Shown here: piece by piece, positions 7,324-40,883 of the stretch
Numbering within the stretch: position 1 is the stretch's first letter
Layout: each line of letters opens with the position of its first letter
Origin: Closterium sp. NIES-65
Lineage: Eukaryota; Streptophyta; Zygnematophyceae; Desmidiales; Closteriaceae
Direction of reading: 5' to 3'
Assembly (NCBI GenBank): GCA_948144175.1
Contig: CANXME010002189.1
Location: 124,001 to 188,000 of the forward strand
DNA length: 64,000 nucleotides
The notes under the pieces: model-generated
Databases searched by the model: none
What the model was told of the DNA's origin: nothing
What the model saw: only the letters and a program-made list of their open reading frames with translations
Position numbers and translations under genes: made by a program

Positions 7324-7403
<80 letters not shown>

Positions 7404-11238: not shown

Positions 11239-11340
11239 CTTGAGACGCATTCCAGGGAATGCCACTGGCAAAGTCGGGCAACAGAGGACCCAGCAACAAC
11301 GCGTGGAGCAAAAGCTCCCACAGAAGTTATAATGGTTCAA
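11239..11340 (-). pseudogene. Signal-peptide exon remnant of the paralogue
   Basis: The minus strand reads ELLLHALLLGPLLPDFASG then IPWNASQ and a GT donor after 11239. This matches RKLLLGALLLAALLFHSATV then IPWHASQ of the intact gene (40703 donor), in the same phase. Homology continues upstream (caggcgtcag shared), but the paralogue has an in-frame TAA just before the hydrophobic core and no usable ATG was seen. Confidence 0.6.
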
Positions 11341-11630
11341 GCTGACGCCTGCTACTATAGTACGAGTAACGCCTCTCGCTCTTCATCGTGGCTACTACTA
11401 CTATACTATTGGTAATATTACTAGGAAAGGCACTGTGTCTCTGTGTCTCTGTAACGTCCCTGTAACCGGGAGGTACTAGCTCTAACTGGGAGGTACTTTC
11501 TGTGTACGTCCCTTGCTATCCCTTACCATTCTCGCGACTCACTGAGTCCATGGTAGCAAGGAGATTGTAGGCACCATGACCGTGGGGTCCGTGGAGGCCT
11601 ATGACGTGGTTGACGATCAGTGGTGGCATG

Positions 11631-15285: not shown

Positions 15286-16766
15286 TTAGGGTACACATAT
15301 ACGCACTTGTGCAAGATCCTTTCCCCCTATAGTGCCTGCACATGGCTGGTTATACTCTTGATACTGTAATCGATTGCGATTGAATTCTTTTGAATAGATG
15401 GTGACACATGGCGTGCCCGCCTTAAAAAATTTAGGCCTGCCTTTAGTGCATCTTCCAAGTGAATAGTCCAGGTCCTGCGCTCTTACACAAATCTGAAGCC
15501 ATGGGGAAATGGAAAGAAAAGAAAATAAAAGCAATCAAACAAACAACAGGACTACGAATCATGTGTTCGAAAGAGCAAATGCTGCAGCCAGCACCATTCA
15601 CCAACCAAGGGTCACCACCATCTCAGTTTATAATCACCACCATCATCTTGCCTAATGCACCGATATTCTCACCTGCACTCGCATCGTTTCACTCGCAGCG
15701 TCTTTCGAATTCACAGGATCGCCGCACACTAGCCCGGGGTTTATCCGGTAAAGCTCCACCATGGAAAGGCCAAATAGGGAGTTCTTCACGAATTGCAGGC
15801 AGCTCTCCTTGCTCTTCAAGAACGCCGTCAGCAGACAGCTGGGGACAGTGCCTACAGCTTTAGCATCACGCCCGACGCAAAGCGAGCGGGATACGTTGGG
15901 AAACAAGGAGCAGTTGAGGCCCGGGTTGAGCTGCTTTAAGGAGCCTTTTGACAGTGTGAGGAATGCTTCCACTGAGGAGCAGGTATCCCCCTGGTGAGAA
16001 GTAGGTGGGTTTGTGATAGGAGCAGGAGCATGAAAGCAATCATAAGCCAAGAGAAGTAGACTGGTTGTGAACCAAGAGCAGTAGAGCAGTTGTGAATCAA
16101 GAGCAGTAGAGCAGCTGTGAATCAAGAGCAGTAGAGCAGTTGTAAATCAAGAGCAGTAGAGCAGTTGTGAATCAAGAGCAGTAGAGCAGTTGTAAATCAA
16201 GAGCAGTAGAGCAGTTGTGAATCAAGAGCAGTAGAGCAGTTGTGAATCAAGAGCAGCAGAGCAGCTGTGAATCAAGAGCAGTAGAGCAGTTGTAAATCAA
16301 GAGCAGTAGAGCAGTTGTAAATCAAGAGCAGTAGAGCAGTTGTGAATCAAGAGCAACACTTACGGGCAGAATGTAGTAATAAGCAGAACACGCAATCAGA
16401 TTTGTCTTTGTCATATTGAGTTTTATCTTCTCAAGGGGCTTCGAGCAGTCAACACCCTGCATTCGCAACAGCAGGTGAGCACACTCTCACGGATCTGTAC
16501 TTGAGCAACTCGCGTGGTGGTAGTTGGAATGATAATCTGCTGCTAATGATGTCCAACCCTAAACCCTAAAGCAAGCAGCATTTGGTAATGAGGCACGTAG
16601 CAGTGAAATGCATTCCAGCAACATGGTGGTGAGAAATGCAACTCAGAGTCAAACGGCACCGTGTTCATGAGTTGGAACTCCTTTTGTGTGAGTCCGAAGA
16701 GGTAGAGCACGTCAGCGCACTGCCAGTTGCTGCCATTCACCATCAGTGTGGACGCACTGCCCCAAC
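15286..16766 (-). CDS. Main gene exons 44-47: four LysM-like units and stop
   Basis: Exon 44, 16660-16766: LysM unit 1, NWQCADVLYLFGLTQKEFQL then MN. Exon 45, 16364-16456: its end GVDCSKPLEK and the start of unit 2, ACSAYYYILP. Exon 46, 15673-15990: unit 2 proper, GDTCSSVEAFLTLSKGSLKQ then LNPGLNCS, and unit 3, SCLQFVKNSLFGLSMVELYR then INPGLVCG. Exon 47, 15286-15492: unit 4, AGTPCVTIYSKEFNRNRLQY then QPCAG and RICVP before TAA. GDTC-LNP-C spacing marks plant-type LysM. Such units bind chitin, chito-oligosaccharides or peptidoglycan in known proteins. These four exons use phase-0 introns, unlike the phase-1 modules upstream. Confidence 0.8.
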
Positions 16767-19700
16767 CTGTCGATGGAAAGGGGGGAGGCAAGCAAAGCAT
16801 ACAAGGAGGAGGAGGGAGAGGTTAACAGAGGAGCAAAGAGACAAGGAGGATGGGAGGGGGGAGGGGACAGGCATCAAGAAAACGCATGGCCTTCTTTACT
16901 GAAGCAGAAAATCAAGCTACAGAAAGGCTAGTTATTGTCCACTGTGTTTGACTAAAATGAAGGACAAAAGGACTGAGGGACGAGTCATGGTGGATAAAAG
17001 GATGGGCACGTTTGGGTAGGGGACACGGGGAGAGAAAGCAAGGCAACACAAGGAACTATTCTAGTGGTAACAAAAGAGCAACTTTTAGAGCGGGAATGAA
17101 AGGGGAAAGGTTTCACTTTCAGTGGGGAAGGACAGGGTGGGAAGAGAAAAAGATGCTTCTTAAGATAAGGGTTGCGTGGACACAGGAACTTCGTGTGGAA
17201 AAGGCATTATAAGAGGTGAGTGAATGCAAGAAGGAGAAAAGCCTATCCGAGTAAAAGAGAGTTGTGAACGAATGCTTTGCAACACGACAGAATCCATATG
17301 TTTTTTTTCTTGTGGGAGATGTAGCTATGGAGAAATGACAGCATACTAGAAAATGTTGCAGAAATGACCCATTGAAGACAACCAACCTCTGGAGCAGGTG
17401 GGAAAGCCATCGATGGTGGAGTCCAGAACGTGTGTGGGCGGGCACACACAGGTGTATGAGCCCTTGCCGTCGTTGATACATGACCCCACCTCACATGGGT
17501 TCCGCGTGCTGCCACTGCACACATCCGCTGAGACCCACAAGCAACCGCACAGGAAGGCAGGCAGGTGGGCGGGTGGGCAGGCAGGTGGGCGGGCGGGCAG
17601 GCAGATGGACATGAGTCGAGCAAAAACTTGACTCACTTGTTTTACTCGACTGAAACGAATTCATAGTCCTTGTTCCCTTTCATTTCTTTTTACTCGGCCA
17701 AGACGAACTCTTTGGGTAAGAACAAACTTGTTTTGCATTGATTTTGTTCATTTTCACCATATTTTTCTTGACAAATGGTAAAAACAAAGAGTCGAGACAC
17801 TTTGACAGTCCCGCGAGGCGCCAGACCGGGCACATAATCATTAGATCTATTTATGTTAGGGTGGTATTGTTTATGTACTTTTAATGAGGGTGCATTGCAT
17901 GGCGAAAGCAGGTGGTGGGCCGGTCTGGGGGGCGGGCAGGCAGGGTGCGAGTAGCGTGAGAAGAAAATACAAGATTTTTGTTTTCTCGAAATTATGGTCA
18001 ACGCATGAGTTGGAATCGGAAAAAAAAAAAACAAACAAACAAACAAACAAAAATCTCAGGAGCGAGAGGCACCCACCATAGGCACAGGAGCGAGAGCCGT
18101 CGCCATTCGGGGCTTCGACAAAGGGATGTTTGCAGAGACAGCTGTTGGAGCTGCCGTTCACACGGCACGGGAAGGTGCCACATGGGTTCATCACTGATGA
18201 TTGATCTTCGCTGAATTTGAACGCCTTGACCATGCAAGGGTCGTTGGGGACTGATGTGGCAGGGGGGACGAAATGAGGGATTGGCGCAATTAAGGAGCAG
18301 ACACTAGCACCAAGTGTTATGATTATGTTATTATTATGACGAGCAGGAGTCCCTAGCAGACATAATGACGAGCTCGCGACGGCGAATTGCAAGACAGGGA
18401 TGCCATGCTGAAGCACTAGCCGAGCAGCCTATCGGCTGGTTAAGGCACCGTGTTTGGCTCAAGGTTGACTCGAGAGTAAAGGCGGTTTGGTCTGACCTGA
18501 GGTGCCTTAAGCGACTCACTTCGGATGACAGGGTAAATGCCAGGTAGCACATTGATGCCGCAGATGCCATCCGCAGGTTCCATCCCCATGTACATGTACC
18601 CACTCGCCCCCCACTGCGTGCCCCATGAGTTGCGGATCTTCCAAAAGGGCGGGGAGATGGTCGGGCGGCTGTTATCGGTGCCAACCATGAGGAAGCCTGT
18701 AACGAGTACAACGTGGTTGAGGTTGCCCGTGTAGCACCCCGGGTCCTGGTACTTGATTGTCTGCATGCATACACTCCAACACAGAGGGCAGGGCACAAGG
18801 AGCACTGGTTGATTGCATACACTCCAAAGTTGGTGAGGCAAAGAGGCAGGAAGGCACGCACACCACATTGTGATCATAGTCTCAAAAGAAATCAAGCCTC
18901 TCGTTCTTGATAAATAGGATCGGTAAGACGTGTTGTGTGGTGTGGTTGATCACATGTATAGCACAGTGCATTTGGTCTGCCAAACTTAGGCCTGATTCTT
19001 TGGCCTTGGTTCGTTTGTGGATGGATTACATTGATAGCATCGTTTTGCCTTTCAAACCCCATCGTAGGCAAAAAAATGCAATTCAGGTCATACCTCCTCG
19101 GCAGTGACGCAATGGAATTCAGAGATCTCCCCATCGTTGGTAATAATAAGAATGCATTCAGCTCATGGATATCCCATCGTAGGAGATGCAGCGGAATTCA
19201 GTTGATGCATACCCCATCGTAGTCAATGAAGGAGGCGGCGCTGGCCTCGATGTGCACCACAACAGGCTGGCGCCACACTGCCAGCATGAGCCCAAAGTAG
19301 CCCTTGAATGCTGTCCTCTCAAACCCCCGCACGGGGAACTTTGCCTGCATGCACAGGCACGCACATGCCGCGCGCACATTTACGTTCACATGCCCATCAC
19401 ATGCACATGTACATGCACATGCATATGCACATTCACCACATTCACATTTCACTTTGACATTCACATGCACATGCACATGCACATGCACATTCACGACATT
19501 CAAATTTCACATTTCACATTCACATCACATGCAAATGCATATGCATATGCCATGCACAGGCACACATAACGACTTGGTGCCATTTCAGATGAATGCGAGG
19601 TGCTCACCATTTCGTTCTTGCTAGGAATGCAAGGCTAAAGGCGAGGAATGCGAGGATAGGTGTGGAGCATGTCAGCAGAGATGGAAGGGAAGGAAAGGAG

Positions 19701-22700
19701 TGCATACAGGTGGTGGTGATGGTGAAGCGAGAGCAGTTGCTTCAAGAGAAGGAGGGTGCGGTGCTGTTGCAGATGAGGTCAGGTTCGCAGGGCAGGAGAG
19801 AGAGGAGGACGAAGAGGAGGAGGAGGAGGAGGAGGAGGAGGAGGAGGAGGAGGAGGAGGAGGAGGAGGAGGAGGGGGTGGGGGGGAAGGCATTGGTTGAG
19901 GTCCCACTGAGGCCGCCACCCTTCACAGCAGCCTTGACGAGCTCCTCAAAGGCCTTGGTGGGAGAGCCGCTGGTGCAGCCAGGGAGCCCCATGAGTTGGT
20001 AGAGGGAGTCAATGGAGAGCGATGGGAACGACTTGATGCTGTTATTCGCGATGCCGTATGCTGCTTCTATGCTTGCCACCACCGCATACGCCCAGCAGCC
20101 CTCTGCATGTGTGGAGAGGGAGAGTGGTGGAGACAGGAGCCGGGGACAAGGTCACTTAGCAGCTGACGCAAGCACGACGAATCCGCAGAAGCTAGAAGCT
20201 GACGGAAGCCACAATCCTCTAAGTCCAAAGACACCGCACGGGCCTTTGTCCTCGGCCTGCCTGAGCTTGCATTTGTTGCTCCTAGTATAGTGAAAGGGAA
20301 GTGAAGAGAGTTCCATGTGCAGTGGCAGAGAGGTGCAGAGCCCCAAGGCTGCAGCCTGCCATAGGCGGTGCCGTGCCGGTATACTTATAAAGCACAGCGG
20401 CAACAAGGCTCGCCATGTTAACCTGCTGACTCGAGTCAGATGTCAATCAAGTCTCACCGCAGGAGAAGCCCTGGTCCTCAGGCAGCCAGCGCGGGTCGAC
20501 GGTCCACGTGGAGTAGGTGGGCATTCGCCACGAGTCCTGCTCATCCTGCGCACCGCCGTACCCCGCGCTCACGTAGCGTGTGAAGGGGCTCGTGGTGTTG
20601 GGGCGGAACATCTCTGCATCCACGCTCAGGCCTGTGGCTGCAGGTAGGCAGGGAGCAGCACCAGGGGGGGCGGGAGCGAGGGAGTGGCAACGAAGGGGTG
20701 GATTGAATGCAGCAGAGCGAATTGCATCCACGTCTGGACGGGTGGCTGCAGGCAGGGAGCGACGGTAGCCTGCAGGGGCGTGGGGGCGAGTGAGGGGTGA
20801 TTGGAATGTGACAACAAAAGGGGCGCCATGAGGCTTGTTAGGATGCGATGAGCTCTCAGCGGGGCTTGTTAGGATGCGCCATGAATTCTCAGGAATGGTG
20901 TGCCGCGCACAAGGCATCAGCACTCTACTGTGGCCAGTTTGGCGCAAAAAGCTCAACCCACACGCCTCGGGCCGTGCAAGTTCAGATTCAGGCAAGAACT
21001 CAGAGCTTGGAGCTATTTTTGTTAAGATTGACAACAGATATTGAGACTTGAACTAACCCCTAGCATAGAAAGATGAAAGTTGAAGTAGTACTATGAAGGT
21101 TCTGGACGGACCGAACCAGGACAGTTTCGAACGAACCGAACCACCTCTGTTTCGGTCCAAACCAGTACCAATTCGAGCACTAATGGTTGAGTCAAGTACC
21201 GGCAAAATCACAGCCTGGTTCGACCTGAACTGATTCTGGTTCGGTTCGGTTCGTGCTCATGCCAACCATGAACTGCCTAGCGCAAGAACTAGGAGCATCT
21301 CTAGCCAGGAGCGCCAAGGATGGGTGCTGCACAACTCACTTCGAAAATCTGGAAGCGGTGGGGGCTCAGGGTATCCTGCCAGGAGAAGAAAGGCATTCAA
21401 CATTTCGAAAGCCGTTTGAGACTTGAGAAGAAAGGCATTTGGAATTTGAGAAGAAAGGCATTTGAGATTTAGACCGAAAACAATTATTGTGATGTGACGA
21501 GGAAGACTTGGAAGGGTTTCCTGAAGCTATTGTCTTGTTTTTGCTGCCTTCTGTGCTTGTGAAGTGCATGCATGGTGGTTTTGCTTAGCTGCTGCAAGAA
21601 AGCTTACCTCTTTCAACAGATGCCATGGCCACAGCATGCTTCTGTGCATGCAGCCGTGTGGCGGCCACAAAGCCAAAGTAGAACGAGGAGGACGCTCGCG
21701 TAGGCTGCAGCACGTCGCAGAGAGAGAGTTTCATAGACAGCGTGGGTTCGTTCGGGCGAGCACTGAATGCCGATGCAAGAAACACCTTCAGGCTCTCTGT
21801 GTCGTCAGGTTTGTACTCCACCCATGCAAAGTACATTCTCCCGTTGTTGAGCGCAGTTGAGACTTTAGCAGTCACTTCGGAAAAAGGGCTGCCTTTCAAG
21901 TTGATGCCTATGTGGCTTGCGCTCGTGTCATTGTGCTCCTGGTTCAGCCACGTGTCAAACTCCACTGCCATGCTGCGCCTGCTCATTCCTGCATATCCCA
22001 CGCCGCTGGCGGCGCCACTGGCAGTCTTGTTCGTTGCGGAAACGACAAGCGCGAGCCCGTTGCCGCCCTTGCCACCAGTCTTTGGAATCATCATGAAGGA
22101 GAAATTGGCCTTGAAGAAAAACTCTAGGCCACAGCCATCCCGGATGGTGTCGAACGAGAAGAGCTTCAAGGGCGTCTTGGAGAAGAAGGACCCGCGAGAC
22201 GGTGCAGTGCGGTCGGTGAGGGTGACCATGGCCTGGATCAGCGTGGTTGATCGGGGATACATGTTTCCTGCCATGTGGGGGAGCATTTCCGTGAAACATA
22301 ACAGGGTGAAATGATTGTGGAAGCATGGAGTTGAGGTATGCGCATCAGCGCATGCTGCAAATGTGTCAAGCTGAGATAGCATAGACATGAGCAAACAAAG
22401 CCGAGTGGATACTCCGTTCAGTAAACAGAAACCTTCTTTTTACTTGTCAGTTTCAGACAAGTGTGTGCGCGCATTGTTATCTCAACGAGTACAGAGTTAC
22501 TTGATAGTTAACTTTTCGCAAAATATGCATTTTGCCGGCAGTTCTCTGCAAATTTGAAAATTTGATACGCGGATCTCTCATTACCATGAGTGAGATGGTC
22601 TTTCAGCTTTATCTCACTCGTGCCTTAAAACTTGATTGAGTCAGGCTAAACCGAGTCGAGTAAAACTAAAACAGGCTTAACCAAATCGACTTTTAAAATG

Positions 22701-25700
22701 CTCGTGCCTATGACTCACGATAACCTCTGCAGTCAAGACTCGAGTGATGTGCCATTCGTATGGCAGACTTTTATGAAAACATGGGATCATGGCACACAAC
22801 GATTCTCACTTCACTCAATAATCATTTTGGGAGTCACGTGCAATCTTCCTTACCTTCAGGGATACAGGTGCTTAGAGACTCTCCTGTGATGTACCCCTCA
22901 TTACAGATACACACAGGCGTTTCAGCAGCCCCTTTAAGAACGCACGTGCCAAACCCCCCACAGGGAGGGCTTTTGCTGGAAAGGCCGCAGAACGGGGCGC
23001 ATTCACTCATGGACCGTTGGCGGATCTTGGAGCAGGGCGAAGCCTTTTTCGTGGAATTCCCTTTGAAAGTGAAGCAGTTGTCTTGGTAGAGGTCTGGTTT
23101 GCAGGACTTGGGCTCGGAGGCAGAAACAGAAAGGTAGTTCGTGTGTGCCGTGAATATGATGGTGCGTCGCAGCGGGACCAGCGCTCCAGTGAGCATATTG
23201 TTGTTCAAATTGCTGTGTTGTGTGTGATGGTCAGGGCAGGGGGGGTGCAAGCAACAGAGGGGTTTGGCTGCTTAGTCCTTGGAAAAGCAACCAAAATCTG
23301 TGCTAAATGCGAAAAAATAGTGGAAAGCCCCTCATTATCCACATTACTGATCCACACTGGCCTCGTGGCAAGTGGGATGCACAAATTTCATTGTCTACCG
23401 TTAGAACCTTGTATTCTCCATGACATTTGGCCAGTAGAAGATGCTCTGAGAGTGATCAGAGGGAGAAATTACATGCTGGTGAGTGGCACTTCCATTATGG
23501 TGAGAGTTGCTTACATATTGGTGAGAGGCACTTACATTCTGGTAAGAGAAGCCAATGAGCTTATATTAGAAGGTATTCTCCCTGAGAACCGGTTGTAACT
23601 CAAATCTCTGCGTTGCCAATCGTGCACACATGATGGGCATTCATAATTGGCATGCCCGCATTCAAGCATTCAAGCATGAGTGTTCATCCACTTGCCTCTG
23701 GACGTACATGAGTAACTTGCCCTTTGCACATTGTGCAACGAGAACAGCGTCCCGTTTCAATTCAACCATGCGGTGCAAGTGCAAGTGTGCCACCAGTCGG
23801 TTACAGTGTAGAGGTGCCAGCAATTTAGCTCATGCTTATTTATCCTATGCTGCCGGCCACACTGTCAGTCTATTCTCACACCCTTTGAACTGCACAATCA
23901 ACACTCACTAGCATGAGAAAATGGGCGCACTGGCAAACTTTCACTTTACTGAACGAAGGGCTTCAAGCTCTAAAGCAAACAACTTCAAGACGAAACAACT
24001 TCTTTCGGAGCTTGCGGATATGAACCTTCTTGCCATGTGTCTTCAATCCCCCAGTTTTTCCAAGGATAAACGCAAGTGTGCGAAGCTACAAGCAACTACA
24101 GCACATTGGCTTCAGAAGAGTGAGTTATAGTGTACACATTACAGCACACACACACTAGATGGACAGACTTGGGAAAACCGCCATAATGCTTAAGCCCAGC
24201 AAAATGACGACTTACAAAACTTGAAGTCGTTTGAGCGGCTCAAGAGAGGGGGGCACCTGCCAAGACAAGTGGTTGTGCTGCAGAGCCCTGCAATGCGGAA
24301 TAGCCATTGGGCATGCGTGGGCACAAGGCGACAGTGCGGGGCATGAGGAATTTGCGAACATGTCGTATTCTTGGGATCACGTTGTGTACTTGGGAATAGA
24401 CATGATCACCTTACCAAACCGCAGTTTGGTTCGGTGCAGATCCGTTCGATAATAACCGGAACAACATTTCTTTCTGCCCAGGTCGTTACGGACCGGTTCG
24501 TTGGTTCGGTTGGTTTGTTTTCATAATTTAACCGAGTCGCAGCGACAAACAGATCGTGGTTCGTCGCGACAACCAGCGCGGCTTGCGATGGTTGGGGGTA
24601 CGAGGCATTTTGGGTGGAGTTGATTGGATGAGGGGATTGGCGAAATCAGAGTTGCGCGCAAGACACTACGTGCAAGCGTATTGCACATTTTCCAGATATA
24701 TGTGCAATGCGTGATTCCACCAGCGTTTTTGCACATTACGCTTCGCTGTCCAGTGCAAGCACATTACACAACTAAGGGGGTGTCCAACGCGTTCATTTTG
24801 GGAATTTTAGTGCCCACACACGTGTCGGGGGAAGAAAAAGTGATCACTGTACCAGAAAACGGATGCTCTTTGAGCCGAGTCCACAGTTCCTCGAATTTCG
24901 AGCGCGCGGACACATTCCCACCCACACAAACTTCAACAGTGCCAACACACTCTGGAAACCAGGGTAACCGGTTCCCTCATGAAGAGTGGGGTTGACATTT
25001 TCGCCAGTGTGCATGTGGTTTCGGCGAGTATCGAGCGGCACTGACGAAATCGTGCGAGCAATACACAGGGAACTTACTGTAGCTAGTTGGACGCGATACT
25101 GTACCCGAGTTCGCGTGCATGCTGTAAGCTGTTAAGTGAGCCACACGACTCGAGGTACATGCAGCTGGCGTACCTTCTCATGTACAACAGTCGGTCGTGT
25201 CCACACTTTCTGAAAAATGCATTGTTACAACTCAAAATGTGGTAACTGAAGGGATTTATGAACGGTAAATGTACGCGCTGGACACCCCCTAAGGCTACAG
25301 CTTTACTCTGGGTACTATAACCACACCGAACCGGTGCCGGTTCGTGAGTTACTAACAAAAAAACCACGAACCGGCCCATTGAAGAATAAGGCTCATCACG
25401 AACCGGTTCGGTTCGGATTTGAACCGGTTCATAAACAAAGGCTATGAACATGAGACGGTTCAGTTCGGTACCTTGCTCTTGTCTATGTGGGAACACATTG
25501 CGTACTTAGGAGAATGTTGCCTAACTGAAAACTCGTTACCAGGCTGCTTAATTGGGAACAAGCTGCCTGATCGAAAACAAGTTGTCTAATTGGGAAGAAG
25601 TTGCCAAATTGAAAACAAGTTGTCAAATGGGATAAAGTGGCAAGGTTTGAAGCAAGTTGCCTAATTGGGAACAGTTGGCTGATTGTCAAGGAGTTTCTTA

Positions 25701-31700: not shown

Positions 31701-34700
31701 CACAGTGTCTCGATGCGGTTGGTGGAATCGCATGAGACGAACGTCATGCGCTCGCACGGCATGCCACTCTTCCACGTGCCATCGCCATCAAAGCCTCCCC
31801 ACGCGGCCATGAGTGATTCCAACACGCTCCCTGCACGCACGCACACACTCAAGGCAGCCGATGTCATTGCTCCGCACAGGCAACCTACGGTCAGCCCTCT
31901 CCACTATCACAGAGTCAGGAAGACTCCAGGCTGGAAGACTCAAAATGATGGTGTGAGAAGCTGGGAAGCCAGTGCTGCCCTTAATGAAGCGGTGCTTCAC
32001 AAATTCACAAAAATGCTTATAAGAAGTACTCCATCCCAAGCGTCAGCATGCATGCATCATGTATGCAACGCCTTACAGTCCGTTTGTGGGATTAGGGAGG
32101 CACACGTTCCAGGATCAGCTCCATTGTCGTACCCCTCCCCGCACACACACGTGGCAGTGCCTGTGGCCTCCCCCCCCTCCCAGAAGCAGTAGCCGCGGCC
32201 GGCACAGGGCGGGGTGGAGGGAGGGGAGAGGCTGCAGAAGGCGGAGCATTGGAGGGGGGGGCGCTGGGCGTGGGGGAGGGCGCACGGGACGGCGTCGGAG
32301 GGGAAGCAGTTGTCGTGCAGAGAGAGGGTGAGCGGCGAGGAGGAGGATGAGGTGCACATGGTGGTGGGTAGCGAGCCTCCGTACAGGTAGTTGCTGCGCA
32401 AAGCCCTGCCAAGGGAATATTGACCAGGGAAAGGAAATGCAGCCAGGTTTGCGTGCTTGAGTTTGAGATTAGGTTGCTTTCGATGCTGTGAGTCTGTGAC
32501 CAGGGCCGGAGAATATACCAACGTCAAGAGCAGGGAACTGTGATGAATGCTTGAGATTTGAGGCGTCTCAAAGCAAGAGCAGGGTGCTGCGACGATTAGT
32601 GTCTAGCAGGCGTCTCAACCATGACCAGTGACGTTGAGGAATACTTATAGATAACAAAGATAAAGTGAGGTTGTAGAGCTCAGATCGTTCTGAAAAAAAT
32701 GCTTTAGTGAGCTGCTCTTCTCACAGCGTCTGCAGACGCTTCAGTAGGCTGAAGGAGGAAGGTATCGAGCCAGACAGCTGATTGAACGACAGGTCACTGT
32801 GAGGTGCGAAAGCATGGAAACGAAAGAGGGAATTCAGCGAATTGTCCATCTACCAGCATTGTCCATACGAAGGATGCAGCAGCAGCAGCAGCAGCAGCAG
32901 CAAGAAGCATGCCCCAAGGCAAGCAATGGGAGGAGACGGAGAGGTGGCAAGTCAAACAAAAAATATGGAGGAAAGACTGGTCATTCAATAAAGTGCACCA
33001 GTGATGGGCTGTTTGTGTGTGAGTCATTAGAGTCGACTCAGATGTAAATCAATGTCGAAGAAAGACTGGTGGATGGGAGACGGGATGAGGTTTGTATACG
33101 GTCTGAGGACAACGACATGCAAGGGACCTGGGTACTGCAGGAAAGCATTCATGCAGACATGAGGTATATATACACAAAACTGCACGAAATGTGTAACGTT
33201 GTATGCTGGAGAAGTGAGGATCATGCCATACGTACAGGGTCTTGCAACACATAATGATCTGATGCAGAATTGGGTTGGGAAATGCAAACTATGTCAACTA
33301 GAATGATGTGTACTGTGTGATGCTATGAAGTGCAGCTGTACTGTACGCACAGGCGTGTGAGGCGAGTGAGCAGTGACAGAAAGGGTGGGATGGGTCCAAA
33401 CAGGCCTTGGTTTGATAAGTCACTGCAGTCAGAGTAGGTGGGAGGGGAGAGGATAAGGTTGAAGTGAGGAGGAGAAGGATGAAGATGAAATGAGGAAAGA
33501 GTGAGAAGGGAAGGTAAAAGAGGGGGGGATGGGGAGGGAGCGCACACACACAGGGGATAGCAGGAAGGTTCCAAAGTGGGAAAGTGGGTGGCTAAGAGGG
33601 GACAGAAAGGGCCGAGCACAAACAACGGGAATGGAGGGAACAAATAGGACGAGGCAAGAAGAGGTGCCTCAGACTTGCACAGGGAAGATGGGAGTAGCTC
33701 CGGAGAAACGTCACTGCCCTCCTACACATCCCAACCCAGCCTACTGCATACTGTAGTAATAAATCCGACACTCACACAGGAGCAAAAAACATGTTCCACT
33801 CACAGACTGACGATGAACTTTTCAGAATCGGGAACGACAAAGCGGAGGAGGGAGACTGGGGTTTCTGACTGCCACGGTCCACGAGGGCTGCCCCACAATG
33901 CCAACAGGTCTTCCAGGACTTGCACTGGCAGAATCACACGTTCAGACGGGATGGGAGGAAGAAGTTGATATGAACATTGAATCGTGAGGAAAACAAACTT
34001 GTGGACGAGAAAGCTTTTATGACGAGGTTCACATATACATAGTGAGCCCATCCATCCATACTTCTGTTTCGTTTTGATTCAGTGTTTAGGGTTGAGGGCA
34101 AGTCTGCGGATGACAAGACGTCGATCTCCGTTCACCCGTCATGAGTACGCACCCTGTGAGCTCTCCAGCATAGAAACACAGGAGTTGTGGGTAGGCCCAG
34201 GCACGTATCCCTCAAAGCACTGGCACTGCATCTGGCCGGCGCCCCACCATTCACCCCACCCCTCGCCAAAGCAGTAGCCGTGGCCGGCACAGGGGGGCAC
34301 GGAGGAGCCAATCATCCCACAAAAGTCAGAGCACGTTGCGAGCTGCTCGACCTCCAACAGGCACGGGACATCTTCTGGCGCGAAGCAGTTGTTCCGCACG
34401 TCCACTTTGACGCTTTCGCAAACCTTTCCCGCGATAATTCCAGATGAAATGAAGTTGTTGCGTAGTGATCTGCGTGGAAAGGAAGGGAGGAGATGTGAGG
34501 GGAGAGGAGAAGTGGGGTGAGAGAGAGATGGAGGTCCGAGACAGTGGGAGGGAAGGTGTATGTGGGCATTCGCACAGCAACGCTTGGGCTGGGTGTGCGC
34601 GCGCACCTGCAAAGCATCACAAGCGCACCCCCAAACCAAAGCACTACCCGGGCTGGGTGAGCACAGCATTCTGTGAGCATGCACACTCACAGAGATACCA

Positions 34701-35475
34701 AGCTGCTCATTTTAGTCAGAGTTGGCATGGAGCCTGTGAAGTAGTTGTACGAGATGTCTCTGCCGGGAGAAAGGCATGGAACACACATGAAGAGGACGAG
34801 CAAGATGGGAAGATCAAGAAGAGAGAGAACAATAAAAATCCATTGTTCCATCATTAAAGGCAAGATTACATACTACAAGCAAGATATAATGCTAGCACCA
34901 AGCTTACAGGTAGCTGAGCTGAACCAAGCCTGTGACCTCAGGAAAAGGGCCGAAGAAGCTATTACGACTAAGACCGCTGTAATGGAAGGTGAATTGAAGA
35001 TATAGCAGGGAATTGTATGGATGAGGGTGACAGAGGGTGGTGGTTAAGCGTGGGTAAGATCGGTTAGCGCTTGAAACAAAATTGAAACAATCAATACATC
35101 GAACGGAAACGCATGCTGGCAGACATCTCAGGGCTGTGTCTTGCATCCCAGATCCAGCCGTATGGCAAGGACACTCTCCCCCAACCACTTGCACTTTGCG
35201 AGAAAGCATTTGCAGTTGCACAGAAAGGACTTACAGGTGCTTCAGGTATGTCATCAAGGAAATCCCTGCAGGAAATGTCTCTGGAAGGAATGCATCCGAA
35301 AGGACACTGCCAGGAAAAGAAAAGCACGCTTGGGTTAGTTAGCACCCGCTTCCTCTTTTGAGTGAAAAATACTTCAAGCGGCGTGCAGGAAGACATTTCT
35401 AGAAGCAGAACTGTGCAAACTGGGTGAGAGAGCGAGAGCTATGTTTTTTACACCGCAGCGAATATGCAGAGCATA

Positions 35476-35518
<43 letters not shown>

Positions 35519-38500
35519 TGTACATACATATATACAAACAAACCGAAACAGGAGAGAAGACTGATGGGGAAAACCCACATGTGGGTGAGGTGTGGAAGAG
35601 TAAAGAGCCCTGAAGGAAAGCTGTCTTTCACCTCAAACCTTGACACCGTTCTGCATGGCCAATGAGCAAGAAAAGTGGCACAGGTACAGGTCATGCTGTG
35701 GCGTGAGGAGCTTTAAAGCAGAGTAAACGCAGGGGTCCTTATATTACAGGCACAGACAAAACACCTGACAAGCCAAACCTCTCAAAGTAGGCATGCGGGA
35801 GTGGTCGATCCACAAGCTCGGCTTGTGGCTTTTGGAAGAATTGTCAACGAGCCACAGATTTCACTCAGTTTTAAGCTGCAAAGCATCTCCCTTTTACTAT
35901 TCTTGCGGCCCAGCCATCATTCCGTCTTCTTTTTTTCGCATTTTGACCTTGGTCCTTTCCTTTGCACCGCTCACTCTGAAAAACATGTGAGAAAGGCCAT
36001 TTATTTGTCTTGTTCTCCTGTTTCAGCTGTGCTTCTATGTGAAGCATGAGGACGCATGCATCGCACGGTTTGAGATGGTGCAACTAGATCAAAGGCCAGA
36101 CTGCAAATGCGAGATGGCTAAGCTTTTGGCAGGCCTCCCTGGGTTGTCCCTAGCCCCAGCCGGAGGCCAAAATTCAAGCCTAGAGACGACCTCTTTTTTG
36201 GCTCAGTTGGACATGACTCGACCTGGGTCGGCTTGACCCCGCGTATATAAAGTGGAATGCGTGGTGTGGCTCATCATCCTCACGTGCTCGGCTCATCATC
36301 CTCACGTGCTCGGCTTCACGTGCTCAACGCCACAGTTACTCACAGCTTGATAAGGTTGGTCAGCTGACTTATTAACTGTGGAAAAGAACCAGACAAGCTG
36401 TCAGCGTTGCCTATGTCTCTGGTGGACAAAGATGTGACTTGCAACCAATGAGTAAGGAGAGAGGAGCATACACGACGACAAGCGTTCAGCATGCAGCGAC
36501 AGCCATACATGAATGGCTTGAAATAGGCATGGATCAGCCATACATACATACATGACATGGATTGGCATTGCCAAGGGGGCTATGGACACGCATGCACACG
36601 ATCGGCATCGGAGGAGTGAGACACAGGGCATGCAGTATCGCATGGAAGGACAGGCATACATACATGACAGATAGCCTTGACAGGAGGCTGATGGTCTCGG
36701 GTATTTCACCACTAACGACTTGCATGTCAGAGAGGAGACTCCTGGAGGGAAGGGACAGGGACACAGCATCAGAAGACAAACGTGAGGAGTGTGTTGGGAT
36801 AGGGATTGACAGAAAGGAACATTGTATGGTAACAATGGTGCAACAAAAAAGCAGCACTTTCAACTATTGTGGCACACCATTCTGTAACCATGCCATCGGT
36901 GTCGCAAGTGAGCAAGTCTGCAGTCTTGCAGTCGTCCCCGTCCTGCCAGCCTTTGAAGCCTTGGGTGCTGCCACCGTAGAAGCTTTCGATCCAGGATCTC
37001 CTCAAATCCGCGAGGAATGGCACTGCCACCTCCAACCAAACACATGTTTGGCACGAATGCATGGCAGGCAAGTGAGCAGCGCTAGTGACCAGAATGCCGT
37101 TTTCGGCATGCATGTGCAGAGGGAAAGCATTGATATGGTACGGAACAGTGCCCTGGAACGAGCCTCTCAATCCTAGCCCTTACAAGCAGATATTCAGAAC
37201 GTACTCCCTTTACCAAGCAACGCTACCTGCCATCCTTACGCTGGGTGATGTGCCACAGAGTAGCGCTGGTGGAAACACACGTCCCACGGTCCTCTGCGTA
37301 AGGAAACCCTGCATCGCACACACACTTGGCATGCGCTGCGGAGTCCTCAGGATCCCCGTCCCAGTAACAGTATCCATGGCCGCTACAGGCCTCAGAGGAG
37401 GGCGAGATGCCGCAAAAGGCGGAGCAGTCATCGGATGATCGTTGAGCATCGTAGAAGTCACAGGGGTGGTCGAGGCAGTTTTTATAGATCTTCACCTCCT
37501 CGTACTGATCCATGGTGCAAATCTTCACGGGGAATCTGTCATCAGACAAGTAGTTATTGCTCACATCACTGCACGGGGAAGGCAGAGGGGGAGTACAAAG
37601 GATGGAGAGGGTGGAATGAGGGGAGAGGGTGGTAGGAGGGGAGCAGCCACAGAAGGCTGGTATACGTAAGCAGATCGTTGCGGCTGGTTGCTGGGAGCAG
37701 AGGAGGCTGTGGGCAGCTGATACGTAGATTTTCTGAACAGAACAGAACAAGGAAGAAAGGAATGTGTGGAGAAGTGAGGGAGCTACAGGGAGGGAGGTGG
37801 AGGGGGCAGGGGGCTGGGTACTCAAAAACATTTATGTACAGGTAACTTGCTTTCCTCAATAGGGCAGTTCAGCACTCAAAGAAGGACGGACGTGACACAG
37901 CATCCGTGCTGGTGCTGGATCGTTCGTGAGTGACTGTGAGGGATTGTGTGTGTGCCCAGAGGTCCGTCCATGAGGCATGTTGTATGTGACTCACAACCAA
38001 GTAAGGGCTTCCAGGTTGTCAATTGACGCCGGTAACGAGCCTGAGAGCTGGTTGCTTGAAAGGTCACTGCGATGTGAGTGTGAATGAGCAAAGGGGGGAC
38101 CTTGGTTGGATGGCACCATGACAAAAACCGCATTGCTTGCATGAGTATGAGTACAGATGCGAGAAAGCAAGGCAACAAGCAAAGAACAAGCAATCAGTTG
38201 GCGAGCTGCCAAGGGAACGCAATCTACATGGGCTCCCGCAGGGTGAGTCGGGAGGAGGGAGGTGGGGAAGAGCGAGCGAGCAGGGAGGAGGGAGGTGGGG
38301 CAGAGCGAGCAGGGAGGAGGGAGGTGGGGAAGAGAGAGGGGACATGTTAAACCATGCAAGCCCTTCACTTATCTGCAATGTGATCTGAACGCATGTAAGT
38401 GAAGGGCTCGCATGGTTTTAAGCTTGAGAGAGGAGAGAGGCTGACATGGTTTCAAGGCTGGGGAGGTTGGAGAAGCAGTCAGGGAGGGACCCGGCAAGCC

Positions 38501-40883
38501 TGTTGTTGGCCAAGATGCTGCATAAGAAGGAGGGGAGGAGGGTAGCAGGCAGTAGGAGGAGTGCACGGGAACGAGGAGACAGGAGTAGATTAGGCAGCGA
38601 GGAGAGGCAAAACAGTGTGAATCTCCTTGATACAAAATCGAATAGGTCAGGCTCTGCTTAGATACGCGGGTCCAAGGCGGCTGTGGCTCTGGCATGAGCG
38701 TGTATGTGTGAATTCATTCTTCTTACCACGGCGATGGAAATTTAGCAGTGGCTGCAGCACATTGCAGCACAAACAACCACAGACCCATGACATGTCGGCA
38801 GGGGTTGATACGGTTAAGTTACACAATCCATACATACATGGCGCTGGAAAGCTAAACCACACCAGTCTAGGGTGGTTAAGGAGGTGGCTAGGGGTGGCTA
38901 GGGAGGTGGCTAGGGAGGTGGCTAGGGAGGTGGCTAGGGAGGTGGCTAGGGAGGTGGCTAGGGGTGGCTAGGGAGGTGGCTGGGGAGGTGGCTAGGGGTG
39001 GCTAGGGAGGTGGCTGGGGAGGTGGCTCACAGGGACGTGAGTGCGGTCAAGCTGCCAAACGAAGGGATGGTCCCCGTGAAGAGGTTGGCCGACAGGTCGC
39101 TGCCAAGGGCGTTGTCGTGCGGAGGGCAGGCAGGGGGTTGTGGCGTTGTGAGGTAGACAAGGGGAGGCAGGTGGTTGAGGGAAGCACAAGGGGGCATGCG
39201 CATGTTCAATGTCTGAGCATTCTCACGACACACACTCAATGCTACATGGAAAGAACATGTGCACGCGACGTGGTAGTGTTATGTGAATGAAAGGACATGC
39301 GCAACCACACATACAACATTCATGCATACATGCAACATTCATGCACACACGGGACCTTCATGCAGCACGTATACACTCACAATTGAGCCCATGGCATGTC
39401 GCATGGAATGGAAGCCTCACAGATTCACCAGGTTGACCAGACTGTCAAGAGTTGTTGGCAGTTCCCTGCTGAACTGGTTGGATTGAAGTACACTGCCGGA
39501 TGGGGAACGGGCGAGGGGGGGAAGGTGGGGAGAGGGAAATTGGATAGAGGGATCATGTCCAGAATTTTGTGTGCAGTTTTGATGGCTTTGCAAAGCCGTA
39601 CCGAGTCCTCGAGTATTCTGAGATGGTTTCAGGGAGCCAAGTTGGACTAGGCAATGAGAATGTAGCACAGGCAGCACGGGCATGAGATGGTGGCACGGGG
39701 ACGTTACAGGGAGGTGAGCTGCAGCAATGCTCCAATGCTGGACGGCAGGGAGCCGAGCTTGTTTTCACCAGCCAGGTTTCTGGGGCGACAGGTAAGGGAC
39801 AGCCACGCAGGGAGGCCAAGCGGGAGACAGGGAGGAAAAATCAAGCAAGTAGAAATAGTCAGCGCGCGAAATAAAAACTGGAATCGAGGGTAATGGTTCC
39901 GATTGGAATCGTTGTAACTCAACCAATTACGCTCAACGCACACAATTCCGCTTGCTTGTGATGTAACAATCACGGGTCAAATATTACTACACGCCTACAC
40001 GCTGGTAACCACAACAACTATACGATGGCAATTATGCTCTAGAACTGAAAAACATACCTCTGCTCTGATGCATGCAACTATGCCTTACATAACGCTACGT
40101 GATCATGGTAACAACCACGCCTTACATGCTGACAATGACAACCATGTCTTACATGCTTGTAACCATGCCCTGGTCATCACAAGCCAGCACTTGAGCGGTG
40201 GTGCAGTCGTCCTCTTGATTCCACCCCGTGAACCCAACCACCTGCCCCTCCACGCTCATTGCCGCTCGCAGGTCCTCAATCGCAGACACTGCCATTCGGA
40301 CAACAAGTTGGGGGGTGAGGGAAAAGGAGGAGGACGGTAGAACGATACCAGCTTCATGATCAGGCATCGGCAAAGAAATACCATCCAGTGCCAAACAGCT
40401 CAATGCAGACCTCTTCCGGACTTATTTTATATTTCCTTCTGGAGCCTGGTTCTTGTGCCCTTGTTTCCTGGTCGCCGTTTACTGGACCGTCCACCCTCTG
40501 CGTCCGACGGTGCCCATGAAGAGTAACGCCATGTGCTTGCAACTTGCGCTTCCCATTCAGGGTACCAAGATGTAACGCCTGTGGGCTGTGTTAAAGGGCA
40601 TCCGCTGCGCCTAAAATAACACCCTCGTTTTGAACCCAGTGGGTAGCGAGGTTATACAAGGAATTGCGGCTGCGACGCGTCTGCGAATCATGTATCGAAT
40701 ACCTTGCGAGGCATGCCAGGGGATGGCAGCGACAGTGGCGGAGTGGAACAGCAGAGCAGCCAGCAGCAGCGCGCCGAGCAGAAGCTTCCGCAGAAGCCAT
40801 GATGCTTCGAACTGACGCCTGTACACCCACTGGCAGTGCTGGTATGGCGGCGTGTACAAACGCTCTCTTGGTTCCTCCTTCAT
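15286..40883 (-). CDS. Secreted LRR/EGF - L-type lectin - papain protease - LysM protein, 47 exons
   Basis: Forty-seven exons can be placed by GT-AG borders from an ATG at 40881-40883 to a TAA at 15286-15288. Their lengths sum to 6,978 nt (2,325 codons plus stop) with every junction phase matching and no internal stop. Order: signal peptide; six modules each made of an LRR cap (CxxxxxxxxC-type), 2 to 6 LRR exons and a Cys-rich EGF-like exon; L-type lectin; 36-bp linker exon; papain-like protease; two EGF-like exons; four LysM-like units; stop. No kinase, transmembrane tail or GPI-type end is seen, so it is predicted to be secreted. Inferred role: glycan-targeted extracellular proteolysis, in defence or in wall remodelling. 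Least certain are the start (28 residues precede the hydrophobic core; an unseen upstream exon is possible) and the exon 39/40 junction, where another short exon may hide. A decayed tandem copy lies at 1-11.34 kb. Confidence 0.85.
16063..16357. repeat. 25-bp minisatellite in intron 45
   Basis: About twelve copies of a 25-bp unit built on gagcagtagagcagttgtga and atcaa. On the minus strand the array begins within about 10 bases of the exon 45 donor. Confidence 0.9.
17387..18250 (-). CDS. Main gene exons 42-43: two EGF-like units
   Basis: Exon 42, 18077-18250: NPCGTFPCRVNGSSNSCLCK then VEAPNGDGSRSCAYG. Exon 43, 17387-17527: DVCSGSTRNPCEVGSCINDG then KGSYTCVCPPTHVLD and FPTCSRG. Both are phase 1 on each side. 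The six-Cys spacing of exon 43 is EGF-like with a SYTCVC core. They link the protease to the LysM tail, a position where granulin or EGF-type units occur in some plant papain-like enzymes. Confidence 0.75.
18520..21375 (-). CDS. Main gene exons 37-41: linker and papain-like (C1A) protease
   Basis: Exon 37, 21340-21375, is a 36-bp micro-exon (GYPEPPPLPDFR). Exon 38, 20458-20631: SWRMPTYSTWTVDPRWLPED then QGFSC, with the oxyanion-hole Gln. Exon 39, 19927-20102: EGCWAYAVVASIEAAYGIAN with catalytic Cys. Exon 40, 19213-19344: GYFGLMLAVWRQPVVVHIEA then SFIDYDG. Exon 41, 18520-18760: GCYTGNLNHVVLVTGFL with catalytic His, and FWKIRNSWGTQWGASGY with catalytic Asn. All four active-site residues are kept. 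There is no I29/ERFNIN inhibitor prodomain, unlike most plant papain-like proteases. The stretch between CTSGSPTKAFEEL and VRGFERTAF is short for the family, so a missed exon in 19.35-19.92 kb is possible. Confidence 0.85.
19808..19873. repeat. (GAG)n microsatellite in intron 39
   Basis: About 20 GAG triplets. The apparent poly-Glu and poly-Ser frames are not genes. Confidence 0.9.
21080..21270. repeat. Cluster of GAACCG/GGTTCGG motifs in intron 37
   Basis: Repeated short inverted motifs (gaccgaacc, ggttcggttcgg). Similar clusters recur at about 24,410-24,540 and 25,310-25,470. Confidence 0.5.
21608..22267 (-). CDS. Main gene exon 36: L-type (legume) lectin domain
   Basis: One 660-bp exon, phase 1 on both sides, encodes the whole legume-lectin-like domain (about 220 residues, close to the family length). 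Visible marks: GGNGLALVVSATNKT (the GLAF-type strand), the metal site AVEFDTWLNQEHNDTSASHI with Glu, Asp, Asn, Asp and His at the expected spacing (Mn and Ca ligands), YFAWVEYKPDD-SLKVFLA, and SFYFGFVAAT before the end. All ligands expected for sugar binding by known plant L-type lectins are therefore present. Sugar preference cannot be read from sequence by eye. Confidence 0.85.
22854..28471 (-). CDS. Main gene exons 28-35: module 6 (cap, 6 LRR, Cys-rich)
   Basis: Cap exon 28345-28471: MKAWRGYDGKGTWMRDGKCA, second Cys in HITCDGDN. Six LRR exons of exactly 72 bp: 28022-28093 (DVNGTRVAGSIPALISNLVH), 27812-27883 (DLSKNRFSGTVPSAIGQLTN), 27365-27436 (KLSYNSFTGDLPKTISTLRR), 26819-26890 (DLGANAFTGQIPQGVCSMTA), 26566-26637 (ILAENSFTGPVPDCISSLTN), 24216-24287 (ALQHNHLSWQVPPSLEPLKR). 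Cys-rich exon 22854-23212 starts NLNNNMLTGALV and ends MSECAPFCGLSSKSPPCGGF, VCICNEGYITG, CIPEG. The intron before the last LRR exon is large (about 2.3 kb) and holds a MITE and a 72-bp tandem array. Confidence 0.85.
24776..25289. mobile_element. PIF/Harbinger-like MITE in intron 33
   Basis: 514 bp with inverted ends gggggtgtccaacgcg and cgcgctggacaccccc (one mismatch), flanked on both sides by TAA (24773-24775 and 25290-25292). A 3-bp TWA target duplication and G-rich termini are typical of Tourist/PIF-Harbinger MITEs. No coding capacity seen. Confidence 0.65.
25505..25730. repeat. Degenerate 21-bp repeat in intron 33
   Basis: About ten loosely repeated units of the type aagttgcctaattgggaac. 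Confidence 0.6.
25878..26425. repeat. 72-bp tandem array with a perfect palindrome per unit, intron 33
   Basis: Seven full copies and one partial copy (starts at 25878, 25950, 26022, 26094, 26166, 26238, 26310, 26382), nearly identical. Each full unit contains the perfect 20-bp palindrome cttttgaggcgcctcaaaag. The 72-bp period is divisible by three, so open frames of about 150-220 codons appear on both strands. I treat them as repeat artefacts. Confidence 0.9.
27421..27521. repeat. 34-bp perfect palindrome between 33-bp direct repeats at the exon 31 acceptor
   Basis: The 33-bp segment 27421-27453 recurs exactly at 27489-27521, with a perfect 34-bp palindrome between them (27454-27487, centre gagtcgactc). 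The repeat spans the 5' end of exon 31 and its acceptor, so two identical 3' splice sites exist (about 27437 and 27505). Confidence 0.9.
28614..30244 (-). CDS. Main gene exons 24-27: module 5 (cap, 2 LRR, Cys-rich)
   Basis: Cap exon 30118-30244: KSAWGGFDGGGTWSESTPCE with the second Cys in HVKCND. LRR exons: 29723-29794 (NVSGQGIAGSIPINIQDLLH) and 29077-29148 (DLSHNQLSGKLPSGLSRLQG). Cys-rich exon 28614-28939: SLRSNYLYGGALPTSMC, the shared Cys tract, then TATCACGPSFKMGSTPWSC and SNSEC at the donor. The donor of exon 25 sits in the last unit of a 19-bp tandem array. This module is the partner of the paralogue exons at 6.9-9.0 kb. Confidence 0.8.
29543..29732. repeat. 19-bp minisatellite carrying copies of a splice donor, intron 25
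   Basis: Ten copies of catgctcacagcaacgtga. The last copy overlaps the end of exon 25, so every unit repeats the exon end and the GTGAGC donor on the minus strand. Confidence 0.9.
30483..31830 (-). CDS. Main gene exons 20-23: module 4 (cap, 2 LRR, Cys-rich)
   Basis: Cap exon 31704-31830: LMAAWGGFDGDGTWKSGMPC then ERMTFVSCDSTNRIE. LRR exons: 31336-31407 (NVSGQGIPGSIPEAISGLKS) and 30949-31020 (DLSRNYLTGSLPSSISNLLN). Cys-rich exon 30483-30793 is shorter than its neighbours; after FYSGTLFKTICRV it jumps straight into the shared tract ALSLHDNCFPSDAVPCALPH. It ends CITLLPTSEC at a phase-1 donor. Confidence 0.8.
31110..31195. repeat. cacgaccactac-type repeat in intron 21
   Basis: Short imperfect tandem repeat of cacgaccac and taccacgac units. 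Confidence 0.7.
32077..33924 (-). CDS. Main gene exons 16-19: module 3 (Cys-less cap, 2 LRR, Cys-rich)
   Basis: Cap exon 33804-33924 reads LEDLLALWGSPRGPWQSETP then VSLLRFVVPDSEKFIVSL: the fold signature is there, but both cap cysteines are gone. LRR exons: 33351-33422 (DLSNQGLFGPIPPFLSLLTR) and 32725-32796 (DLSFNQLSGSIPSSFSLLKR). Cys-rich exon 32077-32405: ALRSNYLYGGSLPTTMC, LSLHDNCFPSDAVPC, QCSAFCSLSP, PPCAGRGYCFWEGGE, CVCGEGYDNGAD, CASLIPQTDC. A tract of about 185 bp inside this exon is identical to exons 23 and 27. Confidence 0.8.
32876..32902. repeat. (CAG)n microsatellite in intron 17
   Basis: Nine CAG triplets in an intron of the main gene. Confidence 0.9.
34153..37022 (-). CDS. Main gene exons 9-15: module 2 (cap, 5 LRR, Cys-rich)
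   Basis: Cap exon 36878-37022: KGWQDGDDCKTADLLTCDTD. LRR exons: 36664-36741 (78 bp, VVSGEIPETISLLSRLS), 36344-36418 (75 bp, DSLSGSFPQLISQLTNL), 35235-35306 (VLSDAFLPETFPAGISLMTY), 34908-34976 (GLSRNSFFGPFPEVTGLVQL), 34691-34759 (DISYNYFTGSMPTLTKMSSL). Cys-rich exon 34153-34469: SLRNNFISSGI, NNCFAPEDVPC, TCSDFCGM, PPCAGHGYCFGEGW, CQCFEGYVPG. The slightly odd LRR lengths (78, 75, 69) suggest this is one of the older modules. All phases fit. Confidence 0.8.
35480..35515. repeat. (TA)n microsatellite in intron 11
   Basis: About 18 TA dinucleotides in the intron before exon 12. Confidence 0.9.
37240..40883 (-). CDS. Main gene exons 1-8: signal peptide and module 1 (cap, 5 LRR, Cys-rich)
   Basis: Exon 1, 40703-40883: hydrophobic core LLLGALLLAALLFHSATVAA, probable cleavage after VAA. 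Exon 2, 40153-40288: LRR cap GFTGWNQEDDCTTAQVLACD. LRR exons: 39708-39779 (NLAGENKLGSLPSSIGALLQ), 39421-39492, 39031-39099 (DLSANLFTGTIPSFGSLTAL), 38446-38517, 37995-38066 (DLSSNQLSGSLPASIDNLEA). Each is 72 bp (one 69), all phase 2. Exon 8, 37240-37568: a last LRR-like strand (DVSNNYLSDD) and a Cys-rich end DDCSAFC, SEACSGHGYCYWDGDP, KCVCDAGF, CVS, resembling an EGF unit. Exon 8 leaves in phase 1, the same phase in which the cap exon entered. Confidence 0.85.
38876..39027. repeat. 12-bp minisatellite abutting the exon 5 donor
   Basis: About a dozen copies of a unit like ggtggctaggga. On the minus strand the array starts directly at the GTGAGCCACC donor of exon 5. Confidence 0.85.

Follow-up and report, generated by a model that had tools for sequence, protein, structure and literature searches.

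The stretch of DNA analysed here (the window) comprises 64,000 nucleotides (nt) of contig CANXME010002189.1 of the alga Closterium sp. NIES-65 (positions 124,001 to 188,000, forward strand), and it carries a large gene on the minus strand (40883-15286) that is predicted to encode a secreted, multi-domain papain-type protease. The exon chain was rebuilt by hand, starting from 72-nt leucine-rich repeat (LRR) exons with phase-2 introns, and the last exon was placed by homology. LRR exons of this length and intron phase are typical of plants. The chain has 48 GT-AG exons whose phases are all compatible. A preliminary description, made from the letters alone, had recognised GT-AG exons of compatible phase, counting 47, and had estimated about 2,325 codons without an internal stop; the spliced product is indeed a single frame without internal stop, of 2,422 residues. 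It contains a signal peptide, six units of LRR cap, LRRs and EGF, an L-type lectin, a C1A papain domain, two EGF-like exons and four LysM-like units, in this order. The single-LRR exons (69-78 nt each) number 23 on recount rather than 22, and the last exon ends at 15286, as originally placed. Pfam matches above the cut-off were LRR_8 (2.8e-47), Lectin_legB (PF00139, 1.2e-23) and Peptidase_C1 (3.6e-22), and the product contains 108 Cys. The parts of the gene are as follows.

40703..40883, minus strand: exon 1, with start codon and signal peptide (MKEEPRERLY...LLLGALLLAALLFHSATVAA, then IPW), ending in phase 1.
37240..40288, minus strand: unit 1, N-terminal cap (N-cap) 40288-40153, LRR exons 39779, 39492, 39099, 38517 and 38066, Cys-rich/EGF 37568-37240.
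34153..37022, minus strand: unit 2, N-cap 37022-36878, LRR exons 36741, 36418, 35306, 34976 and 34759, EGF 34469-34153.
32077..33924, minus strand: unit 3, N-cap 33924-33804, LRR exons 33422 and 32796, EGF 32405-32077.
30483..31830, minus strand: unit 4, N-cap 31830-31704, LRR exons 31407 and 31020, EGF 30793-30483.
28614..30244, minus strand: unit 5, N-cap 30244-30118, LRR exons 29794 and 29148, EGF 28939-28614.
22854..28471, minus strand: unit 6, N-cap 28471-28345, LRR exons 28093, 27883, 27436, 26890, 26637, 24287 and 23607, EGF 23212-22854.
21608..22267, minus strand: L-type (legume) lectin, a single 660-nt exon, phase 1 to 1, PF00139 at 1.2e-23.
21340..21375, minus strand: 36-nt linking exon GYPEPPPLPDFR between lectin and papain, phase 1 to 1, recognisable in a tandem copy within 1216-1102.
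20458..20631, minus strand: papain exon 1, with a conserved extension (SPF.RY.S) where an I29 propeptide would be, and catalytic Gln1816.
19708..20102, minus strand: papain exon 2, with catalytic Cys1823 (GCWAYA) and a Ser-rich insert from a triplet repeat.
19213..19344, minus strand: papain exon 3, aligning to residues 2164-2215 of the homologue P0002 (71%).
18520..18760, minus strand: papain exon 4, with catalytic His2012 and Asn2040, supported by homology.
18077..18250, minus strand: EGF-like exon 1, phase 1 to 1, supported by homology.
17387..17527, minus strand: EGF-like exon 2, phase 1 to 1, 72% to P0002 residues 2352-2403.
16660..16766, minus strand: LysM-like unit 1, first half, supported by homology.
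16364..16456, minus strand: LysM-like unit 1, second half, supported by homology.
15673..15990, minus strand: LysM-like units 2 and 3, supported by homology.
15286..15492, minus strand: last exon, encoding LysM-like unit 4 up to the stop codon and placed by its similarity to the C-termini of four Closterium proteins (P0002, E 1.35e-17).

The rebuilding of six cap/LRR/EGF units, together with the LRR_8 match, bears out the LRR caps, LRR exons and Cys-rich units that had been recognised at first. N-cap exons run from phase 1 to 2, single-LRR exons from 2 to 2 and Cys-rich/EGF exons from 2 to 1, and the lectin, linking and EGF-like exons all run from 1 to 1. Thus, units and lectin are symmetric class 1-1 modules, whose duplication or loss would keep the reading frame intact. 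Units 3-5 share 76-80% identity among themselves and at most 70% with their counterparts, which is a sign of intragenic unit duplication or conversion. A degenerate, out-of-phase LRR exon lies in unit 5 at about 29235-29166, and by eye its intron to the next LRR exon was apparently lost.

Several splice sites at the papain-LysM end scored poorly on the matrix, which had been trained on LRR exons, and they rest on homology. Because these sites are partly weak, outside evidence for a single gene was sought. Residues 1400-2360 were compared with 5.8 billion proteins, of which the 7,967 with most words in common with the query were scored; among these, eleven long homologues (about 1,300-4,100 residues, E<=1e-3) were found, all from Closterium. 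One of them, P0002 (CLOM_g23103 of Closterium sp. NIES-68, 2,643 residues with a Met start), is annotated as one protein, and its translated matches are collinear with the gene from residue 4 at position 40868 to residue 2642 at position 15289. Counting an exon as covered if at least half of it is matched in frame, P0002 covers 36 of the 48 exons, P0001 33, P0004 27 and P0062 13; the four together cover 42. Six exons (LRR exons 39779, 38517, 36741, 35306 and 24287, and the 36-nt linking exon) had no match of their own in these four proteins. Furthermore, the window contains a second, degraded copy of the gene.

1..11388, minus strand: tandem degraded copy, with signal exon at about 11388-11237 (in-frame stop) and LRR caps 8982 and 6649.
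Same copy, continued, minus strand: EGF exons 7241 (stop) and 2764, lectin 2132-1364 (frameshift), linking exon 1216 (stop), papain 674-1 (stops).

Signal, LRR cap, EGF, lectin, linking and papain exons of this copy align in the order of the intact gene. In the collinear part, aligned blocks hold 2,522 of 2,836 exonic bases (88.9%) but a much smaller share of the introns (25.1% of their bases), and alignment extends over more than half the length in 14 of 17 exons. Left of the window, the copy goes on with papain, EGF-like and LysM pieces, arranged as in the intact gene; the LysM part is interrupted by about 14 kb, probably an insertion. A search outside the window for the copy's papain exon with His and Asn gave no match at E<=1e-3. 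Ratios of nonsynonymous to synonymous substitution rates (dN/dS) between the two copies, usable for six of nine exon pairs and inflated by the decay of the tandem copy, were 0.23 for a cap, 0.55 (one stop skipped) and 0.38 for EGF exons, 0.32 for an LRR exon, 0.30 for the lectin (first 153 codons) and 0.32 for papain exon 1 (two stops skipped); the three pairs without a usable value were the signal exon (two codons compared), papain exon 2 (wrong frame) and one LRR pair. The tandem copy is close to P0004 from Closterium sp. Naga37s-1, a member of the C. peracerosum-strigosum-littorale complex. Identity is 93% in papain exon 1, 89% in the main lectin match and 76% in a short second one, and most matches in LRR and EGF exons are less similar; this points to Naga37s-1 or a related strain as the origin of the window.

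Since P0002 has the same signal exon and order, and since the tandem copy keeps the order, the chain from LRR to LysM is confirmed at the sequence level, short of cDNA, as one gene. A break near 22.8 kb, which would have split it, was looked for and not seen, and the tandem copy still shows a recognisable linking exon between lectin and papain, despite the stop in it. Separate lectin and papain genes were also considered and rejected, because P0002 and P0001 are annotated as one protein each, lectin is followed by papain in 106 of the 107 relatives with both, and the linking exon recurs in the tandem copy. The annotations of P0001 and P0002 are probably predictions too, so a shared software bias is possible.

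The gene product is probably secreted, as predicted from its hydropathy profile. In a Kyte-Doolittle scan, each of the 12 most hydrophobic windows of 19 residues begins between residues 27 and 39, and the best mean past residue 70 is 1.44 versus 2.17 in the signal region on this scale. The block 40821-40700 of the signal exon has 73% DNA identity to 11351-11236 of the tandem copy, and the exon is also aligned by residues 4-58 of P0002. The same scan revealed no membrane-spanning segment after the LRRs of the kind found in LRR receptor-like proteins, and there was no kinase among the Pfam matches of the spliced product. Confinement of the hydrophobic windows to the signal region and lack of a kinase match agree with the secretion proposed earlier, which stays a prediction. 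Plant LRR receptor proteins (CpRLP1 and LRR receptor-like kinases) share with this gene the LRR cap and the type of single-LRR exon described above, about 72 nt long and flanked by phase-2 introns. Unlike them, the Closterium protein has neither a kinase match nor a second strongly hydrophobic segment, and its C-terminus carries a protease and a LysM-like block.

The C1A assignment is supported by both the profile match and the papain fold. The active site is complete (Gln1816, Cys1823, His2012 and Asn2040), and so the papain-like domain with four catalytic residues was read correctly from the beginning. Plant and cathepsin L-type C1A members usually have an N-terminal I29 propeptide. No I29 match (PF08246) was found in the window protein, P0002, P0003, P0007, P0008, P0027, P0062 or P0192, nor in the Pfam annotation of the best 120 of 197 matches to a papain-to-LysM profile. 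Named land-plant papains among the matches listed for a papain-only profile do carry I29. A poly-Ser tract at about 19807-19875, in papain exon 20102-19708, is encoded by a triplet-repeat run, and P0062 has a Ser-rich insert at the same place. Among 96 assessable family members, 81 keep all four catalytic residues, and 15 have Ser for the catalytic Cys; eleven of these 15 form one clade with local support of 1.0.

A gene unique to this locus was rejected, because the same domain order recurs across Closterium proteins. The order, which the preliminary description had proposed to search for elsewhere, turned up in several Closterium strains, in proteins whose database entries call them unnamed or hypothetical. 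The papain-to-LysM profile matched 197 proteins at E<=1e-10, and the best 120 of 197 are all from Closterium. Combined with the long-homologue search, it gave a family set of 131 proteins; the papain profile is matched in all of them, the LysM block is present in 117 and the lectin in 107. Lectin and papain occur together in 107, with the lectin first in 106 (P0076 is the exception), lectin, papain and LysM block in 94, and the full four-part order, with at least three LRRs by a strict pattern, in 15 of the 131. The window protein belongs to this LRR/EGF-lectin-papain-LysM family as defined here, with a LysM score below the cut-off. Of the 24 members that lack the lectin, 17 have a papain match beginning no later than residue 57, so that many are probably truncated models.

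The closest architectures are those of P0002 and P0001 (CLOP_g10400 of NIES-67, partial), which have the same order of LRR/EGF, lectin, papain, EGF-like and LysM-like parts and 53-55% identity to the window protein over residues 1400-2360; of the two, P0002 alone was noted with the same signal exon. A Cys pattern counts six units in the window protein, five in each of P0001, P0002 and P0004, and one in each of P0003, P0007 and P0008. P0001, P0003 and P0004 are partial proteins, and by eye the start of P0001 holds one more unit that the pattern missed. In NIES-68, the short lectin-papain models P0187 (g23100) and P0197 (g23102) are 90-100% identical to P0002 (g23103), and their neighbouring gene numbers and contigs of 1,111,717 length each suggest recent partial tandem copies.

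Beyond Closterium, the papain-only profile (about 150-470 residues) matched 175 proteins at E<=1e-5, of which the best 120 were considered. The nearest not named as Closterium among the matches listed were P0192 (5e-42), the EukProt transcripts P0199 (1.7e-34) and P0214 (4.7e-23) and some unnamed proteins, and the first named land-plant papain, with I29, followed at 4e-19. P0199 has papain, two EGF-like parts and LysM in the same order as the window protein, with 33% identity over 463 columns spanning all of them. This alignment suggests that the papain-EGF-EGF-LysM cassette may predate Closterium. No lectin or LRR was seen in P0199, but its transcript begins inside the papain domain. P0192, which we take from its JGI identifier (Mesen1) to be from Mesotaenium endlicherianum, resembles the window protein in having C1A without an I29 match and is 30.7% identical to P0002 over 319 columns; it differs in its 324 residues without lectin, LysM or LRR match. 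The source genome (874 Mb, 2,400 contigs) contains at least 155 PF00112 matches, counted exon-wise and across families. These are often paired with equal scores on different contigs (e.g., C595/C1740 and C543/C2069), as if haplotypes or duplicates had both been assembled.

Fusions of part of this chain have been described. A peptidase_C1+LysM architecture is reported in a passage of PMC2728734 as known in Chlamydomonas and lost in angiosperms, and a passage of PMC6362431 reports C1A peptidase domains fused to LysM in algae, not retained in vascular plants. Lectin_legB is given 26 combinations in PMC11096116, whose main text contains neither "papain" nor "LysM". The words lectin, leucine and peptidase are absent from the Closterium genome paper (PMC10407611). 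Among the matches listed from the open-access PMC literature, no paper deals with the four-part chain, judged by title and start of abstract. The early statement that no described protein joins all modules therefore survives for the four-part chain and fails for the C1-LysM fusion. Neither the chain of four parts nor the size of its family appears to have been described in the literature searched. Volvox may also have a papain-LysM protein; no paper among the literature matches listed describes it. Plasmodium SERA proteins are a multigene family of secreted papain-like proteins with Cys-type and Ser-type active sites. They resemble the Closterium family in mixing the two types, and they differ in domains and lineage. 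Judged from sequence, the window gene would be a new combination of known parts. Its family, rich in Closterium members, would consist of unusual candidates for secreted proteases.

What could such a protein do? Tentatively, and with slightly less than even confidence, we favour a secreted multi-module papain-type protease for extracellular recognise-and-cleave defence. The six LRR-EGF units would probably bind a protein or peptide target, and the C-terminal LysM-like units would probably hold the enzyme on a polymer of N-acetylglucosamine such as chitin. The lectin-fold domain directly before the protease may position or restrain the papain domain, with the conserved extension of about 45 residues sitting where the I29 propeptide would be, and the papain domain would then cut the target. 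The likeliest role would be extracellular defence against chitin-bearing or peptidoglycan-bearing microbes, in which Cys-type members may be effectors and Ser-type members binding-only decoys or competitors. Secretion, targets, activity, the mechanism of latency and defence are what we infer. A bolder version is rather doubtful: a large germline-encoded family of secreted recogniser-proteases built by symmetric class 1-1 shuffling, in which a papain lacking I29 would be directed by variable arrays of LRR-EGF units together with a modified lectin and tethered to chitin by LysM, while an old Ser-type branch would supply catalytically silent decoys. If it were true, algae of the class nearest to land plants would have a humoral protease immunity contained in a single polypeptide.

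Several observations weigh against the defence protease. LysM is the weakest part of the domain assignment at the sequence level. The four LysM-like units proposed at first are supported by homology, and in the window copy they do not reach the Pfam cut-off, with the best unit at 14.7 bits versus 20.9 (E 0.03). P0062 reaches 18.0 bits, also below the cut-off, and P0002 has no match at E<=0.01. The LysM block exceeds the cut-off in P0003, P0007, P0008, P0027 and P0199, and the low scores in the window protein, P0062 and P0002 suggest a giant subfamily with weak LysM units. The sole PDB match of the block is a chitinase LysM (5bum, 5.1e-4). Match lists of the fold search were filled by lectin and papain and hence are silent on LysM and EGF folds; both AlphaFold models have a mean pLDDT (predicted local distance difference test) of about 70. 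The lectin is also modified. All of its metal ligands are present, as first described, in EFDTWLN...D....H at residues 1633-1649, which fits the Mn/Ca ligand motif of L-type lectins (EFDT..N....D....H); the strict pattern is matched in 65 of 132 proteins, and the lectin fold is supported by a fold search with the relative P0062. The Asp of the sugar site is missing. In three of three profile-PDB alignments, Asn1600 stands at the loop-A position opposite the Asp of a DG loop, an Asp that contacts the sugar in legume lectins such as those of pea and Pterocarpus. Among the 92 of 132 proteins matched by pattern, this residue is Asn in 67, Ser in 11, Glu in 5, Asp in 4, Gly in 3 and Gln in 2. Since Asn1600 replaces the Asp, ordinary glycan binding is not assured, and we rejected the lectin as a proven glycan binder. 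Furthermore, the number of units varies little in the giant subfamily. Identity to P0001 is 44% in the LRR-EGF part, 62.5% in the lectin, 56% in the papain, 69% in the EGF-like and 50% in the LysM part; divergence of the LRR part could come from relaxed constraint, and the LysM part is almost as divergent. Finally, Ser-type members may simply be dead copies, but the single supported clade argues against this.

The strongest alternative, which we regard as unlikely, is action on the cell's own wall or mucilage, e.g., opening of the papilla and release of gametes in conjugation, with LRRs and lectin recognising self matrix or mate proteins. According to PMC4942458, conjugation in this species complex involves disruption of the wall and release of fibrous material at the papillae, and is blocked by concanavalin A; PMC5736609 describes CpRLP1, an LRR receptor-like protein, as a regulator of the sex pheromone PR-IP. 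The listed long homologues, all from Closterium, are also consistent with this role. However, "protease" does not appear in the main text of PMC5736609, and the size of the family and its Ser-type clade would exceed the need of one wall step.

Less probable again is a structural or adhesive role in the matrix, for which the papain fold would serve mainly as a binding module, with proteolysis secondary. The Ser-type members and their clade point to it, as do the many disulphide and repeat modules with 108 Cys, but the catalytic residues are kept in most assessable members and in the window gene. It is very improbable that the gene is a non-functional copy in a decaying tandem array: the neighbouring copy is clearly broken, the papain has a repeat-derived poly-Ser tract and one LRR exon is degenerate, but the 2,422 residues have no stop, catalytic and metal residues are intact, dN/dS to the neighbour is 0.23-0.55 even though its decay inflates the values, and P0062 shares the Ser-rich insert. 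Least probable of all is that exon hunting joined two or three neighbouring genes (LRR-EGF-lectin and papain-LysM), as weak splice sites and the six exons lacking a homologue match would allow, because P0002 and P0001 are annotated as single proteins, lectin precedes papain in nearly every relative with both, and the tandem copy repeats the order as well as the signal and linking exons, with mainly exonic bases aligned.

One secreted chain of the defence-protease kind would unite potential recognition modules of several kinds with a protease in Zygnematophyceae, the algae closest to land plants. The natural set of Cys-type and Ser-type members offers a test of whether cutting matters. A CRISPR knock-out in Closterium is reported in PMC5736609, and thus function is testable.

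The window also contains repeats and mobile elements. Introns and flanks of the gene hold minisatellites at 25805-26501, 15973-16405, 29504-29769 and 9444-9800, with units of 72 nt (7 copies, up to 100% identical), 25 nt, 19 nt and 21 nt; the 19-nt array adjoins the donor of LRR exon 29794-29723. By eye, open reading frames at 44141-49925 (minus strand), 50661-53620 (plus strand) and 61310-62548 (plus strand) resemble a Copia gag-pol, a Gypsy pol and another Copia-type gag, and those at 55760-58251 (plus strand) resemble a BED zinc-finger/hAT-type transposase.
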